Virus record (IMG/VR): IMGVR_UViG_3300027833_000259
Span: 1-20,607 of that record
Strand: one strand, 5' to 3'
DNA length: 20,607 bases
Origin: a virus
Part shown: piece by piece, positions 9,107-20,077 of the stretch
How positions within the stretch are numbered: position 1 is the stretch's first letter
Layout: every line of letters starts with the position of its first letter
Notes under the pieces: generated by a model
Told to the model about the DNA's origin: nothing
Seen by the model: the letters and a program-made list of their open reading frames with translations, nothing else
Database searches by the model: none
Translations under genes and position numbers: made by a program

Positions 9107-9367
9107 TTATTTAATTTGATTCCAATCTTGAGACTTATCCATATCCCATTCAGGGGTATTAGGATTTTGTCTCACCCAACCACTTCCAGCAATAGTGCTG
9201 TTTGTTTGTAATATTGCTTCACCTACTATATCTGCCTTGTTAGACCAGTCAGCATTAGCATTAGCGTTAACAATAGCTTCGCCAACAAAACTTGCTTGTT
9301 GTCTAACGATTGCTCCACTACCTGTAGATGCAAAAGGTGCTGATGCAAAAGGGCAAAATCCTAGCAT
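9107..9367 (-). CDS. Small tail-region protein with MLG-FASAPFAS N-terminus
   Basis: An 86-residue protein starting at TAATG directly after the large fibre gene. The N-terminus MLGFCPFASAPFASTGSG is a signature I recognise from small proteins near tail fibre genes in marine phages and prophages. Two imperfect copies of VGEAI-x-x-(A/T)N follow (about residues 28-37 and 48-57); in other members this part is a longer series of short beta repeats. The C-terminus is acidic and rich in Asp and Trp. The function is unknown; given the context, it is likely a small virion tail component. Confidence 0.55.
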   Translation of the reverse strand: MLGFCPFASAPFASTGSGAIVRQQASFVGEAIVNANANADWSNKADIVGEAILQTNSTIAGSGWVRQNPNTPEWDMDKSQDWNQIK

Positions 9368-12300
9368 TACTTAACCCTCTTTTCTAGTTCATCTAATCTT
9401 GCTGATAGTTTCTCAATGAGTTTATCTTTGATAGCTAACATCTTGTCAATCTCTTCTATTGAATACAAAGTAGGTGATAAATGTTTTACAATCTGTCCCG
9501 CAGTACCGATATAACAGTTTGGTACATTTGCTGAAAATTCAGTTGTAGTTAAATTTGGCATAGCAACAGAGCCATCAGTATCAACTGTTATCCCATATTT
9601 ACTATTAGAAACAAGACTTACAGGGTCATTGGATTCCATTACTGCCCCATCACCATTATAATTGGGGTTTAAGTTAATCTCTTGACCACCTCTCTTAATT
9701 TTAACAAAACCATTTTCAAGGGTTGCATTACCATCATTGCCTGTCCATATGCTATCACCTGAACCACCACCCTCTCCTATAACTGCTATGTTAACATACT
9801 CAGAAATACTATTTCTGTTTGTTTGATAGTCTGGTGTAGTTATATAGAATGAATCTACAGTAGGGGCTGATGTTGCCCAAGTTGCACCTTGATTAAACAG
9901 TTGAGGTGTGAGCATTGGTTTTGTGGCAGAGCTTGAAGTAGAAGCTATTACACAATAATTAGCGTTAGGCATTGGGGTTTTAAAAGTTACCTTATATTCG
10001 CCCGAACCTGTATTTTCTACAGAAGCAATATTGTTTTCAGCTCTTATATCTGATGTTGTACCATCAAAGTTTACCCAAGCCTTTATTGAATCACCTCCGC
10101 CTGAACCACCTGTTCCTACTGCTACAGGCATACGAGCTTCTTTCCAATTATAATAATCTACAGTACCAGCTCCTGTTTTAAGCTCATAAGTGCTACCAGC
10201 TGGAATTAGTTGGAATAAAGGACTATATAAATTACCACCACCTGTATTATTATTTAAACCAATAGTGGACATATTATCGCCATCTATATGAAATTCAGCA
10301 TAAGAATTTGGTGCTGTATTTACATAAATAGAAATATATAATGGAACATCATTATCATTAGTATATACAACATCTTTTACTCTAGTGCTTCGTACGTCTT
10401 CCCACACCATCTTCTCTGGAGTGTAACTACCACCACCTGAACCACCTGTGCCAAATGAAGTAATTGTAAACTCACCATTAGTTAAACCCTGTGTACCTGA
10501 TTGTGCTCTCATGTAAGCAGAAAAATTTACTGTTTCGTCAGAAGTAGCAGTGAATATATATTGATGTGCTATAGGGGCAAATATTGCTGACTGAACATTT
10601 GTAACTACCGACCCAACATAAGCTATATTGCCAACATCCTCTGGCACTCCATTTGTATCTTTTACAAATTTAAATTCAGCTACAGGTACATTATTTGTAA
10701 GACCATTATATTGACCTGATAAATTTAAAGTGTATGTTTGACCAGCCTTAACATCAAGAGTAATACCACTTAAACCCCACTTCATCCAGTCAGTGCCGTT
10801 TAATGTAGGAACATCATTTAACTTCTCAACTTCATATAATGTTGGTGTACCTGTTGCTTCACCACCACCACTAGATTGACCAGTGATTAGTGAGGCTGAT
10901 AGGTAGGTTTTTACACCTGACCCAAGATAAGAAACATCTGGATTTGTTGATACAATATAACCCGCTAATTCTAAATAATCATTAACACCATCTAAATAAA
11001 TTATATCACTTACAGTACCTCTTACTGCCTTATCAGCTGTTACATCATTACCATAAGAAACAGGAATACCATTTTTATATAACGAAGCTACAAGCCTAGT
11101 TGCATTTGGAACTCCAGCTTGAGATACTGCTCCATTAACTTGATACCAACCTTTTACAGTGGGTTTAAATTTACCATTATCAAAAGCCCCACTTGTATCA
11201 ATAGAAGCAGAATCTAGTTTAACAGTTTCCTCTACTCCACTTGTTACTGGTTGATTTGTAGTTAACTCACCCCTAAACACAACCGCTTCTTGTACCTCAC
11301 CACCACCTGAACCACCACTAGATTGACCAGTGATTAGTGCTACGTTAAATTTAGTTGTACGACCACTAACAATATTAACCTCACTAGAGCTAACAGTTAA
11401 TGCTTCTATGGTTATATAATCAGTTGTGCCATTACATTTAACTATTGTGGTTGTTGTAGAAGTTATATTATCTTGAGTAGTAGCATCATTATACGCTTCT
11501 GAACCTTGTTGTACCTTGTTGCCATTTAATGATACTGCACATATTCCTCGTCTTACAGAACCATCTCTAAATCCTGTGCTTCCAGAGACAAGGTAATAAC
11601 CTTCTACATTTGGTGTGTATCTTCCAGTAGCTGTATCTAAACAGTCATTTGTATCAATTTCTGCATCCTCAAACGTAACTGGAACCCATAAGTTTGATGG
11701 TATAGATTGGTCTGCTGTTTTACTAGCTCTCATTGTAACTGCTGGTTGTACATCTCCACCACCACTTCCACCGCCTGTTACCTCTGACCATGCTTCATCT
11801 TGTCTTGCATATTGTTTACCATCTGCTGGTGCTTCTGTAACTACTGTTTTACCATTGACTGTTATGTCGTCTGGTGTAGTTATACCCCCATTCCTTTCTA
11901 TTGTTAAAGCTTCTTTGTTACCATCTCTTAAAAATTTAAATCCACCAAACGCTGAAGCAAACTCTATTGTGTTGTCAGGGTCAGCATACTTTTTAATGTA
12001 GTTCTCTCTATCACCATCAAACTGTTCTATATAATACTCTTTACCAGCAACTCCACCATCATATTCAGCTACATCATCTACTTCTGTCCATATACTATCA
12101 CCACCTCCACCAGCACTTGCTGGGAAAGCTTGAAATGCTACTTTAACACCTTCTATTATTGTGCCTTGTGCATCTTTGTTGTTAACTAAAAGAACTACAT
12201 AATCACCAGCATCATCAACACTAATAAGTTCATATCTTCCATAGTTAGGACTTTCTACTTGATTTAACACAAGAGAATCACCAGCTTTTATAGCAGTAAA

Positions 12301-13395
12301 TTCACGAGTATTGCCTTGTTCATCAGTCTTAGATAATAATATTTGATTACAAGTTGCATAGCTATATGTAAATACACCCGTTGCTTGAAGATACATATTA
12401 CCTGTTTCAGGGTCTCTATTAGCACTACTTGGGTAGTCAGCAGAGTAAGATGAGCTAAAGAATATACCTTCTTGTAATGCTTCTATATCTTCTGAGTTTT
12501 GACTTACCTGTCCTGATAGTGTTCCAATAGCAGTTGTGTTAGATGATATGTTTCCTGTGTTAGTTGCAATGTCTGTTGTGTTAGCTGTTATTTCAGCATC
12601 TTGTTCTAGTTGTTGTGCATCTATTTCAGCTTTAGTGTAAGTAGTAGTTTTATCTGCTTTCTCAAATAGCTTACTATCAATTTCAGTGTTGTTGTAAGTT
12701 TCAGCTTTAGTGTAGCTATCGCCAACATTAGCTTTGTTATCTAATAATGTGTCTGTTTGTGTTTTAGTGTAAGTTGTTACCTTGTCAGCCTTATCATCTA
12801 ATAGGTCGTTTGTTTCTGTTTTAGTATATCCATCAGTAGACTCTACTTCTGTCCATTCACCATCTTGTCTACCATATTGTAATCCATTAACAGGTGCATC
12901 AGGTATGCCAGCAGTATCAGTAATAGATACCCATGTCTTGTTGTTACGAGCATATGTCTCACCATCTGTTGGTGCTTCAGGTGCTAGGTTATTTGTATCA
13001 GCATTAATGTTAGTAATACCATTGCCTTTACCTACAAAGTTATTAGCAGTAACATTAGATGATGGAAAATATATATTGTCATCAGCATTTAAGAATACAG
13101 CCTTTTCAGAAGGGTATGTACAGAATATACTTGAGTTACCTGATAGAGGTATCTTTTCGTTAGCGTTAGATGAAGATAACACAGTTCTTGATATTGCTTG
13201 TGTTGAACCTCTGTTCATGTAGTTCCCATAACCAACTTCCCAAGCTGTATTATCTGTAATACAGTAGTAAACTGTGTTACCATATGTAATACCTTCCCAA
13301 CCTTGATAACCCTCTTTGGTTGCACCAATGATTAAATCACTTGTGCCTGTGGTTGTACATAGTGTAAATATTCTATCTTTTAATTGAATTGCCAT
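9367..13395 (-). CDS. Large multidomain tail fibre with C1q-like modules and Gly/Ser linkers
   Basis: A 1342-residue fibre. Residues 1-105 form the attachment domain (KDRIFTLCTTTGTSD, then YQGWEGITYGNTVYYC and AWEVGYG), a common phage fibre N-terminus. Residues 138-187 hold two P-x-x-G-x-x-Y-x-R-x-x-x-x-W units and a third lies at 520-539. Residues 189-258 contain YTK-T/AE-x-x-x-LLD-x-KAD repeats, then a heptad coiled coil with NTT-I/T patterns (262-310). From 311 on, beta domains are separated by Gly/Ser linkers near 428-434, 540-549, 690-702, 838-846, 983-990, 1094-1102 and 1207-1214. Domains 550-690 and 703-838 look C1q/TNF-like. Residues 1311-1342 are a C-terminal coiled coil, which could nucleate trimers. 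It is the best candidate for the main host-recognition fibre. Confidence 0.85.
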   Translation of the reverse strand: MAIQLKDRIFTLCTTTGTSDLIIGATKEGYQGWEGITYGNTVYYCITDNTAWEVGYGNYMNRGSTQAISRTVLSSSNANEKIPLSGNSSIFCTYPSEKAVFLNADDNIYFPSSNVTANNFVGKGNGITNINADTNNLAPEAPTDGETYARNNKTWVSITDTAGIPDAPVNGLQYGRQDGEWTEVESTDGYTKTETNDLLDDKADKVTTYTKTQTDTLLDNKANVGDSYTKAETYNNTEIDSKLFEKADKTTTYTKAEIDAQQLEQDAEITANTTDIATNTGNISSNTTAIGTLSGQVSQNSEDIEALQEGIFFSSSYSADYPSSANRDPETGNMYLQATGVFTYSYATCNQILLSKTDEQGNTREFTAIKAGDSLVLNQVESPNYGRYELISVDDAGDYVVLLVNNKDAQGTIIEGVKVAFQAFPASAGGGGDSIWTEVDDVAEYDGGVAGKEYYIEQFDGDRENYIKKYADPDNTIEFASAFGGFKFLRDGNKEALTIERNGGITTPDDITVNGKTVVTEAPADGKQYARQDEAWSEVTGGGSGGGDVQPAVTMRASKTADQSIPSNLWVPVTFEDAEIDTNDCLDTATGRYTPNVEGYYLVSGSTGFRDGSVRRGICAVSLNGNKVQQGSEAYNDATTQDNITSTTTTIVKCNGTTDYITIEALTVSSSEVNIVSGRTTKFNVALITGQSSGGSGGGEVQEAVVFRGELTTNQPVTSGVEETVKLDSASIDTSGAFDNGKFKPTVKGWYQVNGAVSQAGVPNATRLVASLYKNGIPVSYGNDVTADKAVRGTVSDIIYLDGVNDYLELAGYIVSTNPDVSYLGSGVKTYLSASLITGQSSGGGEATGTPTLYEVEKLNDVPTLNGTDWMKWGLSGITLDVKAGQTYTLNLSGQYNGLTNNVPVAEFKFVKDTNGVPEDVGNIAYVGSVVTNVQSAIFAPIAHQYIFTATSDETVNFSAYMRAQSGTQGLTNGEFTITSFGTGGSGGGSYTPEKMVWEDVRSTRVKDVVYTNDNDVPLYISIYVNTAPNSYAEFHIDGDNMSTIGLNNNTGGGNLYSPLFQLIPAGSTYELKTGAGTVDYYNWKEARMPVAVGTGGSGGGDSIKAWVNFDGTTSDIRAENNIASVENTGSGEYKVTFKTPMPNANYCVIASTSSSATKPMLTPQLFNQGATWATSAPTVDSFYITTPDYQTNRNSISEYVNIAVIGEGGGSGDSIWTGNDGNATLENGFVKIKRGGQEINLNPNYNGDGAVMESNDPVSLVSNSKYGITVDTDGSVAMPNLTTTEFSANVPNCYIGTAGQIVKHLSPTLYSIEEIDKMLAIKDKLIEKLSARLDELEKRVK
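10864..10892 (-). repeat. 29-base perfect direct repeat, copy A (end of second C1q-like module)
   Basis: Identical base for base to 11311-11339. On the minus strand it encodes the end of the second C1q-like domain and the start of the next Gly/Ser linker (LITGQSSGG). The two copies are 447 bases apart, an exact multiple of three, so recombination between them would remove or add one module in frame. Confidence 0.9.
11311..11339 (-). repeat. 29-base perfect direct repeat, copy B (end of first C1q-like module)
   Basis: Partner of the copy at 10864-10892. It encodes LITGQSSGG at the end of the first C1q-like domain. The flanking domain bodies have diverged strongly, so the identity is confined to this junction. 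Confidence 0.9.
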
Positions 13396-14780: not shown

Positions 14781-15677
14781 TTAAGCAATTTCGTTAATCA
14801 TTGCATGAGCCGCTTCGTTTTTAACAACGAGTGTGTACTCAACATTCATCATATACTTCTCTGAATCACCAGTCTTAGCTAGTTTAGTCTTTTTGAACGG
14901 ACGTAAGTAAGCTACTGATGCCATACTAGGGTCTAGGACTAGAGCTGCGCTGTTGTCTAAGAATCTATCAGGTACTACTGACAATGTACCAAAATCTGAC
15001 ATGTAAATATCAGCAGTTGCTACGATTGTTGTAGGTTTGTTGCTTGGAGCTTGAAAACGCTGTTCAGCAATACCAGCAAACTTTGAAACTTGTTGCTTGT
15101 TAGATGGTGAAACCAATAGCATTGATGGTTCGCCACCTGCTGTATATGCTTCTAAAACAGCTTCGTTTAGGTTTTCTTCTAAAAACGCAGTTGAACCATC
15201 TCCATCACCAGCAGTCACTACGTTAGTAGTTAGCCATTGTTGTATAGCTTTTAGAGTTCTAGCTGTTCCTGTACCACCAGCACCGCCTGCTTGGTTAGAC
15301 AATAGGATAGATTCCATGTCTCGTTTTAGCTCTGATGATGCTTTAGCTAGTTGGTAAGCTGTTTCTGTAGTTCTACCAGCTTTATCTACAACGTCATCTG
15401 TTGTTGATACTTGAACAACTTTATCAGAAATCTGAGTCCAGTTTTGGTTCATAGTTGTAGAAGTTAGAGCTGGTGATACCGCATCTGCCCCTTCAACTTG
15501 TGCATTAGCTAAATCTACATCTGATAGTGAGTCGGTCTGCCACTCGTGAACAGTTGCTTTTGCTTTAGTTCTGCCAACTGTTGACATGAATGGTGTTGTT
15601 GTTGGTGAAATGTCGTAAATCGCATCTTGTAAATCTTCGCGAATACCGACTGTTGAATATGTGTCTAATGTTGCCAT
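14781..15677 (-). CDS. Major capsid protein, SU10-type (HK97 fold)
   Basis: A 298-residue protein. The start MATLDTYSTVGIREDLQDAI, then YDISPTTTPFMSTVGRTKA and EWQTDSL, is the N-terminal signature of the SU10-type major capsid protein family (formerly DUF5309), whose members have the HK97 fold. Later landmarks are ELKRDMESILLSNQ in the long spine-like helix region, an AGGAGGTGTARTL loop, LLVSPSNKQQVSKFAG, and a C-terminal strand with A-Y-L-R-P-F-K-K-T-K-L-A-K-T-G-D. It follows the scaffold gene after 12 bases with AGGA upstream and is followed by a stable hairpin. No maturation protease is visible in the window. It forms the capsid shell around the packaged genome. Confidence 0.85.
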   Translation of the reverse strand: MATLDTYSTVGIREDLQDAIYDISPTTTPFMSTVGRTKAKATVHEWQTDSLSDVDLANAQVEGADAVSPALTSTTMNQNWTQISDKVVQVSTTDDVVDKAGRTTETAYQLAKASSELKRDMESILLSNQAGGAGGTGTARTLKAIQQWLTTNVVTAGDGDGSTAFLEENLNEAVLEAYTAGGEPSMLLVSPSNKQQVSKFAGIAEQRFQAPSNKPTTIVATADIYMSDFGTLSVVPDRFLDNSAALVLDPSMASVAYLRPFKKTKLAKTGDSEKYMMNVEYTLVVKNEAAHAMINEIA

Positions 15678-15689
15678 TGTTAATGTTTC

Positions 15690-16688
15690 CTATAAAAAGT
15701 TTTTGAATACTGAGGTAGCATCGTCCAGACTGCCTGTACCTTTCAGTTGTTTTTTCTGCTTAGTGTAGGTGTCTGCATTCGTAACCCTTTTAGTTTTACT
15801 TGCCATCTTAGGTGCGCTTTTAAGCTTTTTGTTAACACCCGGATTAGCTTTCTGCAATTTATCATATGCCATAGCCTTTTGTAATATCATTACATGACGA
15901 TGGTCATACACTTGCGATAACTCTTGGTCACTGAATCCTACACTTTTCCCAAATGTGCGAATATCATTCTTGATTTGTTCGGCTTTCTTTGGGTCAGAAA
16001 ATTCCTTTACTTTTTCAGATAACATTAAAGCTTCATTGGCTACGACTTGATTTTGTTGCTGCAATCGGTAATGTTGTTGTTCTTGAGCTACCTTTTGCTG
16101 TTCTTGTCGTATTGTATTAATCTTTTTGTTTGCTTCTGTTTGTTCCGCTACTGTTATAGCGTATTGTATTGGGTCATTTTCTTTTAATTCTTCTAAATTC
16201 TCACCTGGTTTTGCTTGACTAGTTAAGTATTGCTCTACCTGTGATAATTTTTGAGCATATGCCTCTCTTGTACGCATAGCATTTTGAATTTCTTGAGCGT
16301 GTTCTTCTACTTTCTTTCGCTCTTCTGCTAATGTTTGAGATTTCTGTGTGTAGTCTGTTGATTTTTGATAACCTGAAACTAACTCATCTAGGGTAACATC
16401 TTTTTCTTCGCCACTAGCTTTAACTCTGTAAGTTTTACGCTCTTCAACTTCTACCTCTTCCGACTCATCTTCTTCGTCAGTAGCCTCTGGTTCATCTTCC
16501 GATTCCTCTTCTACTTCTTCTTCCAATGCTTCTTCATCAGTTTCCTCAACTGCTTCCGTTGCCACTTCTTCATTTGCTACCTCTGGTTTATCGTTTGATT
16601 CCTCGGCATCTAACATATCAGTGAAAACTTCCGTTGCGTCTCTTGGAGTTTCAACTGAGTTAGACTCTTGGTTGATTTGCTCGTCCAT
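15690..16688 (-). CDS. Capsid scaffolding protein
   Basis: A 332-residue protein directly upstream of the capsid gene, with AAGGAAG six bases before its ATG. Residues about 22-83 are almost entirely Glu, Asp, Ala and Val, a long acidic region. Residues about 86-125 contain YRVKASGEEKDVTLDELVSG and a YQKSTDYTQKSQTLAEERK stretch, a motif of phage scaffolds (Y-x-V-x-G-E-x-x-x-V-T-L-E-E-L-x-x-G-Y-x-x-x-x-D-Y-T-x-K). The middle (about 115-225) is a Gln- and Glu-rich coiled coil. The C-terminus is basic, which is typical for the part that contacts the inner face of the capsid. It should direct procapsid assembly and leave before or during packaging. Confidence 0.8.
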   Translation of the reverse strand: MDEQINQESNSVETPRDATEVFTDMLDAEESNDKPEVANEEVATEAVEETDEEALEEEVEEESEDEPEATDEEDESEEVEVEERKTYRVKASGEEKDVTLDELVSGYQKSTDYTQKSQTLAEERKKVEEHAQEIQNAMRTREAYAQKLSQVEQYLTSQAKPGENLEELKENDPIQYAITVAEQTEANKKINTIRQEQQKVAQEQQHYRLQQQNQVVANEALMLSEKVKEFSDPKKAEQIKNDIRTFGKSVGFSDQELSQVYDHRHVMILQKAMAYDKLQKANPGVNKKLKSAPKMASKTKRVTNADTYTKQKKQLKGTGSLDDATSVFKNFL

Positions 16689-17358: not shown

Positions 17359-18257
17359 TTGGTTACTTGCAACTATATTGCTACTCGCTGATATGCCAGA
17401 GTTAGCTTGGCTTTCTACTTTCCCGTAATTAAACCAGGAATTGAGTATTTAAGAGGGTCTATGTTATATTGTTTAAGTAAAGCTGCTTTTTCAGCATTTG
17501 ATGTTCTTGGATTACCCATAATCATCTCTACAGTATATGCTTGTTGGTCGTTTAGATTAGCTATATTGTTTGAGGTATCGCTTGAAACTTTATCCACAGG
17601 ATTTGTAATTGCATAGTCAGGTTGCTGTGCTTGTGAAGCAATAGCATCAGCAATAGCAAGATTATTTTGTTCATATACTGTGTTTTTAGAGGCATTCTCA
17701 ACAGGTATTGTTGTGTCTATTTGGTCTACATTAACTTGACTCATTTGTGTATCATCTGTTGCATTTAAAAGGCTCATGTCTTGAGCTTGACCCATTACTC
17801 CAGAGTCATACATTGGTGCGTTTGCTCTTGTTGCATAATCATAAGAAATTACTGGAGCATTTTTTGTTGGTTCTTCGTAACCACCCTGAGAAACAGGAAT
17901 ATAATCTTTTTGTCTTGTTATGTCTGATTCTTCTCTATTATAATAAGGTTTTAGAGGTGTAGGCTCGTAGTCATAGTTGCTGTATTGATTTACCGCTGCC
18001 ATATTAGGTTTTATTTGTTGAGCATCTGGAATGAATGTTTGTCTATTTTGCATTGCAGGGTCTACTACCAATTGTGCTGATGTATCTAATAAATTAGCTT
18101 GTGTTGGTTGAGCTTGATATTGAGAATTTAAATCTACAGGTGCGCCCATAAGTCTTTTAGCTGCCATACCAGGGTCAGATTGTACTTTGTTCCAATCCAT
18201 ACCTGTGTTATCAGTTAACCACTGTGTCCCCTGTTTCATAAAGTCTAGCAATGCCAT
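16885..18257 (-). CDS. Predicted -1 frameshift fusion: upstream virion protein plus lysozyme (457 residues)
   Basis: If ribosomes slip at 17418-17424, the product is the 280 residues of the upstream gene, a 20-residue linker (VESQANSGISASSNIVASNQ) and the 157 residues of the lysozyme frame. The linker is rich in Ser, Ala and Asn, similar to the upstream protein and unlike random out-of-frame translation. The lysozyme's catalytic Glu would be residue 344. A minor fused form could carry the enzyme into the virion while the short form fills the structural role. This is a prediction from frame arithmetic and the slippery site; expression has not been shown. Confidence 0.5.
17395..17424 (-). other. 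Candidate programmed -1 ribosomal frameshift site
   Basis: On the minus strand 17424-17418 reads GGGAAAG, in the 280-codon gene's frame as G GGA AAG, and the next codon is its UAG stop (17417-17415). Slipping back one base re-pairs as GGG AAA and enters the lysozyme frame (GTA GAA AGC...). After a 6-base spacer a modest hairpin is possible: GCCA (17411-17408) with TGGC (17398-17395), extended by AG/CT with one bulge. G GGA AAG is the heptamer used in lambda G/GT. Confidence 0.6.
17415..18257 (-). CDS. Asn/Gln/Asp-rich protein upstream of lysozyme, probable virion protein
   Basis: The frame opens at 18296, but I choose the ATG at 18257: it lies one base past the upstream stop, has GGGAA seven bases before it and gives MALLDFMKQGTQWL (280 residues). 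Residues 1-40 look helical with an amphipathic WLTDNTGMDWNKVQ stretch. The rest is low in hydrophobics and rich in Asn, Gln, Asp, Tyr and Pro with repeated PVSQGG- and YDYAT-like pieces, so it may be extended or disordered. The last 40 residues are again helical (AYTVEMIMGNPRTSNAEKAA then LLKQYNIDPLKYSIPGLI). No family is recognised. The codon before the stop is part of a slippery heptamer that leads into the lysozyme frame. Confidence 0.65.
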   Translation of the reverse strand: MALLDFMKQGTQWLTDNTGMDWNKVQSDPGMAAKRLMGAPVDLNSQYQAQPTQANLLDTSAQLVVDPAMQNRQTFIPDAQQIKPNMAAVNQYSNYDYEPTPLKPYYNREESDITRQKDYIPVSQGGYEEPTKNAPVISYDYATRANAPMYDSGVMGQAQDMSLLNATDDTQMSQVNVDQIDTTIPVENASKNTVYEQNNLAIADAIASQAQQPDYAITNPVDKVSSDTSNNIANLNDQQAYTVEMIMGNPRTSNAEKAALLKQYNIDPLKYSIPGLITGK

Positions 18258-18258
18258 A

Positions 18259-18486
18259 TTAAAATTCCCATTTGTTGTCTTCGATTTTCTTACCATCTGC
18301 GATACTTTGCAAATGAGCTATTATTTCATTTACTGTTGTAATTCTCATGTAACATATTTCTCTTGCAACCTTATCATCCACATCTGAATTTATTAACATA
18401 TTAACGTGTGTTTTAACTAAGTCTGCCATTGCCTCTTTAAACGATTCGTCATCAACGATTCTTTGTATTGATTCTTCTTCAATCAT
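18259..18486 (-). CDS. Small helical protein next to terminase, function unknown
   Basis: A 75-residue acidic, all-helical-looking protein overlapping the upstream gene by 8 bases. The core (V-x-TH-V-x-M-L-x-x-S-x-x-D-D-K-V-A-R-E-I-C-Y-M-R-I) resembles small proteins coded after terminase genes in other phages, with an A-R-E-x-x-Y-x-R-I-x-x-x-x-x-I/F-x-x-x-L-Q-S-I-A signature. I do not know a function. It may act in packaging or head assembly by neighbourhood alone. Confidence 0.6.
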   Translation of the reverse strand: MIEEESIQRIVDDESFKEAMADLVKTHVNMLINSDVDDKVAREICYMRITTVNEIIAHLQSIADGKKIEDNKWEF

Positions 18487-18772: not shown

Positions 18773-20077
18773 TTAAACGTAATAATCTTTATATGAATCA
18801 CCATCTAATGTTGTTTCAAATGGCTTTGACCAATCTGTTCTTTGTCCGTTACCTGTTGAGTCCATTCCTAGTGCTAAGTATCTAAAAGCATCTGCTGCGT
18901 GTGAACTCCAATCATGTAATGGCCTGTTTTGGAATGAGCTAGTTTTTTCGTTAAAGACTCTACGATAATTCTGTAAACACTCTACTCCAGCTCTTGTCTT
19001 ATCTTTATTAAACCAACAGTTAGGTAATATTCTTCTGACTGCTTGTATTCCATCTTCTACAGAACTCTTAGGTGCAACCTCAATATCTAAACCAGCTTCT
19101 GTTAAAAATTGGTATCGAGATTTTCCTGTTTGTAATTCTCTAACATTAACATCGTGTGGCATAATGTGAGTGTAGTCTCTATAACCTTTCTCATCTAACC
19201 AGTTTATATAATGGTCTAATGACTCACCAGATGCTTCATAAAAATCCATTACTCTTACTTCACCACTTATTATTTCTGCTACCCAAATGGCGGTTGAATC
19301 AGACATTCCTAAATCCCATGCAGTTACCTTTTGAGTTGCTGCCTCAGATATAATCTCTCTAATTCTATGCTTATCAGTAAGTTCTTTTAAAAGCTCTCCG
19401 TAGTAAGCTCCGACAATAGGTGCTTCAAAACTAATCTCAAATTCTTGGTCATATTTATTATCACCCATCGCTTTCTTCGCATCTTTTAGCTCATCTGGTG
19501 CAATTAACTTTGTCTCACTAGCTTTAAACTCTCTGAGTGTCCAGTTTTCGTTATCATCTGTATCGGCAAAATCTCTTAGTGTCTTGAAGTGATTTGAGCC
19601 TTTAGGTGTTCCGATAAACATTGCCCAACCAATTCTATCTGATAATGCTGGTCTTATTACTTCTGTAAATAACTGTGGTGCAACATCGCCATATTCATCT
19701 ATGACTGCACCATCTAAGTAAATGCCTCGAAGTGAGTCTGCATTATCTGCTCCGTACAAACTTATTCTTCTTCCCATGAAATCAACACGAAGTTCACTTA
19801 CATTTGGAACTCCACCTAAAGGGCGAGTATAATCTTTTAAATAATCCCAAGCAATTCTTTTAGCTTGACTGTAAGTTGGAGCTATATAAGCATACTGTGG
19901 ATTTGGCTTATCGCATTGTAATGCAGCGTGAATTAACTGATTAATTGCAGCGACAGTCTTACCCATTCGTCTGTGACAGACTGCTACAGTCCACCTATAA
20001 TCCCTTACTGCTTTGTGGATTGCTTTCTGTGGCTCTCTAGGCTCATATCCTGTACTTACTTCCTCTACGACTGCCAA
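18773..20077 (-). CDS. terL: Terminase large subunit
   Basis: A 434-residue packaging motor. The ATPase has a Walker A at 34-41 (CHRRMGKT), a Walker B ending in Asp127-Glu128 (LDGAVIDEY) and the coupling motif GTPKG at 156-160. The nuclease half starts with WDLGMSDS, giving Asp255 and Asp260, and ends with HAADAFRY, giving Asp396; these are the expected metal-binding acids of the RNase H-like fold. The start is a TTG at 20077: an in-frame TAA lies six codons upstream and no ATG occurs before residue 38, so TTG (with GGAA upstream) is the best choice. The gene overlaps the HNH gene by 13 bases. It drives ATP-dependent DNA translocation into the procapsid and cuts the concatemer. Confidence 0.9.
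   Translation of the reverse strand: MAVVEEVSTGYEPREPQKAIHKAVRDYRWTVAVCHRRMGKTVAAINQLIHAALQCDKPNPQYAYIAPTYSQAKRIAWDYLKDYTRPLGGVPNVSELRVDFMGRRISLYGADNADSLRGIYLDGAVIDEYGDVAPQLFTEVIRPALSDRIGWAMFIGTPKGSNHFKTLRDFADTDDNENWTLREFKASETKLIAPDELKDAKKAMGDNKYDQEFEISFEAPIVGAYYGELLKELTDKHRIREIISEAATQKVTAWDLGMSDSTAIWVAEIISGEVRVMDFYEASGESLDHYINWLDEKGYRDYTHIMPHDVNVRELQTGKSRYQFLTEAGLDIEVAPKSSVEDGIQAVRRILPNCWFNKDKTRAGVECLQNYRRVFNEKTSSFQNRPLHDWSSHAADAFRYLALGMDSTGNGQRTDWSKPFETTLDGDSYKDYYV

Follow-up and report, generated by a model that had tools for sequence, protein, structure and literature searches.

The locus analyzed here raises the question of how a lysozyme is translated from a reading frame that runs through the end of an upstream gene in the -1 register, and of where the resulting protein would act. 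The window, that is, the whole stretch of 20,607 nucleotides that was analyzed (positions 1 to 20,607 of the virus record IMGVR_UViG_3300027833_000259), carries this frame at the end of a 280-codon gene, whose product is referred to as P280 (Table 1). The sequence features described below make -1 programmed ribosomal frameshifting at the end of this gene very highly probable. The explanation taken as a whole, in which the frameshift makes a hydrolase-tailed 457-aa form that is most likely a virion or ejection protein, is highly probable.

Table 1. Features of the frameshift locus and its neighbors in the window
Feature	Coordinates	Strand	Remarks
Terminase	18773-20077		
p75, conserved small gene directly upstream of the 280-aa gene	18259..18486	-	
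0-frame gene, 280 aa (P280)	17415..18257	-	N-terminus conserved (MALLDFMKQGT...DPGMAAKRLMG), middle variable and mostly disordered (alignment of 16 homologues)
Slippery heptamer G_GGA_AAG	17418..17424	-	In phase, directly 5′ of TAG; A_AAA_AAG or C_CCA_AAG in relatives
0-frame stop TAG	17415..17417	-	Abuts the heptamer; in every frameshift-type relative, the stop is TAG or TAA at +0 or +1 codon
-1 frame linker, 20 codons	17359..17418	-	Contains no start codon
-1 frame product, linker and PF18013 tail-type lysozyme domain, 177 aa	16885..17418	-	Predicted C-terminal part of the 457-aa fusion; coordinates include the stop
Candidate 3′ stimulatory element, 17-nt block GCCAAGCTAACTCTGGC	17395..17411	-	Identical in 9/9 aligned group-1 sequences, which carry three different enzymes
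Scaffolding protein gene, directly downstream	15690..16688	-	phrog_3927, 7.8e-56
SU10-type major capsid protein	14781-15677		PF17236, 1.7e-92

The slippery heptamer and its conservation

The 3′ end of the 280-codon gene reads ...TTA ATT ACG GGA AAG TAG, which confirms the original prediction that a slippery heptamer stands in phase right at the stop. The predicted relation of the two frames was confirmed as well: the -1 register is the lysozyme frame, and it contains no ATG, GTG or TTG before an ATG at codon +20 (17358), 57 nt past the stop, at which no Shine-Dalgarno site was found. This frame opens 10 codons 5′ of the slip point, and after the slip it continues as GTA GAA AGC CAA (VESQANSG..., VESQANSGISASSNIVASNQMSPG...) and stays open for 177 codons. 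Its product matches PF18013 (Phage_lysozyme2) at 1.1e-20, and the assignment of the frame to a lysozyme was thus borne out; the swap of three hydrolase types at this position, described below, had not been foreseen.

In the proposed mechanism, a ribosome that reaches G_GGA_AAG at the end of the 280-codon gene would have its P site on GGA and its A site on AAG, with UAG next. The majority of ribosomes would terminate and release the short protein, and a minority would slip back one base onto GGG AAA, bypass the stop and read 177 more codons, which would result in a 457-aa protein with a C-terminal peptidoglycan hydrolase. The short and long products would have a common N-terminus and would be made in a fixed ratio with the long form in the minority. 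Because the N-terminus is shared, the long form could be built in wherever the short form is built in. Most likely, the protein is made late, belongs to the head or the ejection apparatus of a short-tailed phage and would bring a small number of enzyme copies to the cell wall at DNA entry. The heptamer, the stop, the open frame and the lack of usable starts are read from the DNA itself, as are the concerted heptamer replacement and the enzyme swapping among relatives; from them we infer that the host's ribosomes slip, how often they do so, that virions contain both products and that the enzyme has a role at entry.

The same arrangement was found in 21 contigs (14 distinct 3′ ends among the full-length copies), in which an in-phase heptamer lies 0-1 codons before the stop of the homologous gene. 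The heptamer varies by lineage (G_GGA_AAG, A_AAA_AAG or C_CCA_AAG), and the form X_XXA_AAG is always kept, with XXX changing in concert between G, A and C and with AAAG fixed. Among close relatives, the gene ends in GTG GGA AAG TAG (L002), GCA AAA AAG TAG (L003) or ACA AAA AAG TAG (L004 and L006), and through the concerted change of XXX from G to A one canonical slippery heptamer therefore becomes another. The end is TCA AAA AAG TAG in L017, L027 and L010, which have the same N-terminal gene, and TCA AAA AAG followed by TAG or TAA in L034, L038, L112 and L138. In the distant relatives L039, L040, L041 and L151, the gene ends in GCG GGA AAG TAG and the QANSG block is absent from the -1 frame; this block is also absent from L156 and L158 (GGG GGA AAG CTC/CTT TAG), L152 and L160 (CCC CCA AAG TAA) and L157 (CCC CCA AAG CCA TAG).

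A degenerate pattern scan, in which only AAAGTA and the linker codons were fixed and which doubled as a control, returned true family members that were all A_AAA_AAG or G_GGA_AAG, and chance matches that were GCAAAAG, CCTAAAG and similar. The background frequency of in-phase XXXAAAG was 0.046% (101 of 219,939 in-phase positions). In the last two phases, XXXAAAG was present in all 14 distinct full-length family members with a hydrolase -1 frame compared to 4 of ~824 other ORF ends (those in the loci fetched by that point), and three of these four resemble classical tail-chaperone frameshift genes. Given the residues T-G-K in the window, the codon choice that creates the heptamer has a probability of ~0.003 under local codon usage. 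The corresponding probability given the amino acids ranges from 0.003 to 0.12 per lineage and is ~10^-11.6 over six distinct states, a figure to be read as a guide for lineages that are not fully independent. A pattern for the N-terminal motif had matches in viral contigs and none in bacterial and archaeal genomes.

The original prediction had pointed to relatives as the place to look for conservation or loss of the signal. Every comparable relative proved to share the heptamer, the proximal stop and the open -1 frame. Where the heptamer differs, it is replaced only by other canonical ones; the one frame-separated relative that has lost it, L182, has gained a Shine-Dalgarno site and an ATG. 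As a side observation in unrelated phages, ~125-aa genes ending in KKK-stop with A_AAA_AAG and a 107-111-codon -1 frame (VTWDDI...) were seen in L125 (~688), L129 (~3193) and L133 (~690), a pattern that resembles the classical tail assembly chaperone G/GT frameshift.

Exchanged hydrolases, head-gene context and role of the product

In every frameshift-type member, the -1 frame encodes a peptidoglycan hydrolase of one of three kinds: a PF18013 lysozyme (the window and L002-L004), an SLT-type transglycosylase (L010, L017 and L027, in which the frame starts VERQANSGNYN) or a T4-type lysozyme (PF00959-type; L034, L038, L112, L138, L039 with L040, L041 and L151, L152, L156-L158 and L160). The PF00959 matches include those of L034 (2e-10) and L112 (4.6e-11), and the SLT match of L027 (E 0.0017, 18.3 bits) is under the Pfam cut-off of 21.3. 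Within the hydrolase domain, synonymous differences outnumber nonsynonymous ones. The lysozyme ends early, at ~90 codons, in L006 and L018, which are one contig with an error-rich assembly. By sequence, no match to the window lysozyme was found among solved structures, and its AlphaFold model was poor (pLDDT 53 with 4 sequences). In the T4-lysozyme variants of group 1, an extra ~240-aa gene (MGINVKKIIDMADMFKRFESKLN...) was observed after the lysozyme (L034:2925-3653 and L112:6279-6989).

Two relatives are built differently. In L035, the same N-terminal gene is fused in frame to an SLT domain (1.5e-11). In L182 (1890-2923), a member of the same gene family has no heptamer, and the sequence AAAAAGGGGATTCTAATG provides a Shine-Dalgarno site (AAGGGG) and a stop-start TAATG for the lysozyme. 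This stop-start coupling is a natural alternative to frameshifting. The lysozyme of L182 is a separate protein, which shows that a covalent link is not an absolute requirement. When this lysozyme occurs in unrelated genes of other phages, it mostly has an ordinary start or is fused in frame.

The gene order in the window is terminase, p94, p75, the 280-aa gene with the lysozyme, scaffold and SU10-type major capsid protein, and past the capsid gene are head, fibre and DNA-ejection-type proteins. A 41-kb relative (G001) has an SU10-type portal and adaptor. Because of these neighbor genes and the portal and adaptor of G001, the locus is, judged by gene content, the head-gene module of a short-tailed-type, SU10-like phage. 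Farther along the minus strand of the window (9367-13395), a 1342-aa fibre-like protein has weak mid-protein C1q and Fibritin C-terminal matches (Pfam 1.2e-5 and 1.3e-4). In L018 / G002 (a 36.8-kb record) and L017 / G001, the terminase is broken by several apparent indels, as are the scaffold and capsid genes in L018; these breaks are probably the result of error-rich assemblies rather than biology.

The cultured relatives by capsid (~45-51% identity) include Methylophilales phage Venkman and Pelagibacter phage HTVC106P. In both, a small gene lies between the portal (or the portal's position) and the scaffold, in the same place as p75, and in neither record is a gene annotated at the position of the 280-aa gene and lysozyme cassette. 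The cassette is accessory because several relatives (L031, L036, L042, L043 and L045) have no space for it between p75 and the scaffold.

The AlphaFold model of P280 is of low confidence (mean pLDDT 47, with 190 of 280 residues below 50), and the short protein is predicted to be mostly disordered. Its homologues are Gln/Asn-rich. Searches of Pfam and PHROG with P280 gave no match, and no isolate relative was found. The original prediction had taken the Ser/Asn/Ala composition of the linker as a sign of a virion protein; this composition by itself is no evidence, because relatives with other enzymes have a different linker. Among isolates, the group-2 lysozyme is most closely related to domains of N4-like RNA polymerase proteins that are packaged in the virion, and a tape-measure protein is among the PF18013-type matches in PHROGs. 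The position of the gene in the head cluster and the virion nature of these group-2 relatives favor a role in the virion or the ejection apparatus. A virion protein is plausible for a disordered, Gln/Asn-rich product encoded between p75 and the scaffold that carries domains known from virion proteins and is fused in frame in L035. That the long product is a minority lysozyme-bearing virion protein is somewhat probable on the basis of position and composition.

A different and rather unlikely reading is that the frameshift is real and the long product is a non-virion assembly or lysis factor, with the hydrolase acting as the endolysin or in intracellular remodelling of the host wall. A lysis role is conceivable because the scan of G001 genes recognised no further peptidoglycan hydrolase, and this reading is also consistent with the separate enzyme of L182 and with a P280 that has no homologue of known location. 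It is countered, however, by the same head/scaffold location, virion-type and tape-measure relatives and in-frame fusion that suggest a virion protein.

Internal initiation, the linker and the downstream RNA

It is very unlikely that there is no frameshift and that the lysozyme is a separate protein made by termination-reinitiation at an internal ATG of the -1 frame. The ATG at codon +20 of the window does precede the core of the lysozyme domain, and L182 works in this way, with AAGGGG upstream of its TAATG. However, the distance of the window ATG from the stop and its lack of a Shine-Dalgarno site do not suit reinitiation, and three distinct sequences (L039, L156 and L158) have no ATG, GTG or TTG ahead of the catalytic Glu, which was assigned from the family motif. 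A standard internal start therefore cannot yield an active enzyme in these three. Internal initiation would also leave unexplained the conserved, interchangeable heptamers and the conserved linker that has no start.

The ~24 nt after the heptamer show 88-100% identity in pairs of sequences for which identity is ~20-53% upstream and 22-32% downstream when the enzyme differs. Synonymous-site constraint in the linker, as proposed originally, was present: synonymous differences occurred in 4 of 120 codon pairs of the linker compared to 119 of 936 in the domain. Nonsynonymous change in the linker is tolerated and synonymous change is depressed. Besides an RNA function, recent recombination at that point could account for part of the conserved ~24-nt block.

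A 3′ stimulatory RNA structure is a frequent but not invariable companion of -1 frameshift sites. A stimulatory element in the group of the window is a proposal. The 17-nt block contains a GCCA/TGGC stem with a loop that is able to pair with a downstream GAGTAGC. The candidate H-type pseudoknot of group 1 consists of GCCA/TGGC and of GCTAACTC paired with GAGTAGC or GATTAGC; its 5′ arm is invariant, so covariation is uninformative. The hairpin of the window is weak (z -0.4, single-strand folding). In group 2, a predicted stem is located 6-8 nt 3′ of the heptamer (AGCCUGAAU/AUUUAGGCU in L039), with z from -1.5 to -4.4. All six counted pairs of this stem are formed in 6/6 sequences, with one C-G to U-A compensatory double change; slid versions paired at 0-53%, and the shuffle control, in which 88 of 500 shuffles were as high, has limited strength at six sequences.

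Slippage of RNA polymerase rather than of the ribosome is an extremely improbable source of the fused frame: the six-A run of the A_AAA_AAG members would suit it, but neither the window (GGGAAAG) nor the CCCAAAG members contain a long homopolymer, and the placement of the stop codon and the 3′ stem suits ribosomal slippage. The splitting of one in-frame fusion by a sequencing error, an assembly indel or decay has next to no probability and is already refuted by the comparative data, for although some contigs of relatives are error-prone (the broken terminase of L017 and L018) and L035 is fused in frame, the same junction recurs across many metagenomes, with any of three heptamers and any of three types of enzyme, its stop and frame are constant and the hydrolases are under amino-acid constraint. 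Ribosomal frameshifting as such, the core of the original prediction, is strongly supported by the conserved heptamer, the stop, the open -1 frame and the depressed synonymous change in the linker.

Relation to known frameshift systems

As precedents, frameshift-added Ig-like domains, T7 10A/10B and lambda G/GT come closest. Frameshifting in phages has been reviewed for lambda G/GT, for the T3/T7 capsid and for Ig-like domains that are added in frame or by frameshift, and the frameshift-appended Ig-like domains include those of the T3 capsid, Lactobacillus A2 and Listeria phages (PMC5009743, citing Fraser et al. 2006). As proposed here, a minority of the copies of a structural protein gain a C-terminal domain by frameshift in the Ig-like systems, and some relatives are fused in frame, as L035 is. 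Unlike in those systems, the domain in this family is a cell-wall hydrolase (PF18013, SLT-like or PF00959), and three types occur behind one recoding element.

The gpG/gpGT system of lambda uses the same GGGAAAG heptamer as the window, in the same -1 direction and near the end of the upstream gene, and neither of its products is in the mature virion (PMC5009743). It is flanked by the genes for the major tail protein and the tape measure in a long-tailed phage, and its -1 product adds a T domain that binds the tail tube protein, whereas the gene described here lies between p75 and the scaffold, near the capsid genes of a short-tailed-type phage, and its -1 product adds a hydrolase domain. GGGAAAG also occurs in Privateer's capsid gene, and phiEco32 and SU10 are known to make frameshift products of the capsid (PMC7881722). 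T7 10A/10B and the capsid genes of phiEco32, SU10 and Privateer resemble the present system in their related SU10-type capsid module and in a minor long form made by -1 slippage. In those phages it is the capsid gene that shifts, whereas here it is a separate gene between p75 and the scaffold, and the extension is enzymatic.

Virion-associated peptidoglycan hydrolases, for example T7 gp16 and tail-tip lysozymes, are normal in-frame domains. They belong to the same domain families and share the likely purpose of local wall digestion at DNA entry; in contrast, the dose of the enzyme here would be set by recoding. Shearman 1994, going by its title, reportedly concerns a lysin and not an addition to a head-region protein. 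Citing that work, lysins have been listed among the genes known to contain frameshifts (PMC10885494). Phage Sabazios has two overlapping lysin ORFs, in which no slippery sequence was found (PMC7260188). In the open literature, outside of which most subscription papers lie, no muralytic enzyme attached by frameshift to a protein of the phage structural region was found, which is not proof of novelty.

There is about an even chance that the conserved recoding element acts as a docking junction, in which the slip site, the stop and ~24 nt are kept while unrelated hydrolases are exchanged behind them and divergence accumulates in front. The frameshift ratio, and not a promoter or ribosome-binding site, would then set the number of enzyme-bearing subunits per virion, whatever the enzyme. 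Ordinary gene callers will miss the hydrolase in these uncultured phages, or will assign it a false start. The three heptamers, the three enzymes and the in-frame-fusion and stop-start variants form a natural series for testing what amount of wall enzyme the virion needs. If the explanation is true, phage frameshifting, so far tied to assembly chaperones and capsid decorations, would also serve to dose a wall-degrading enzyme.
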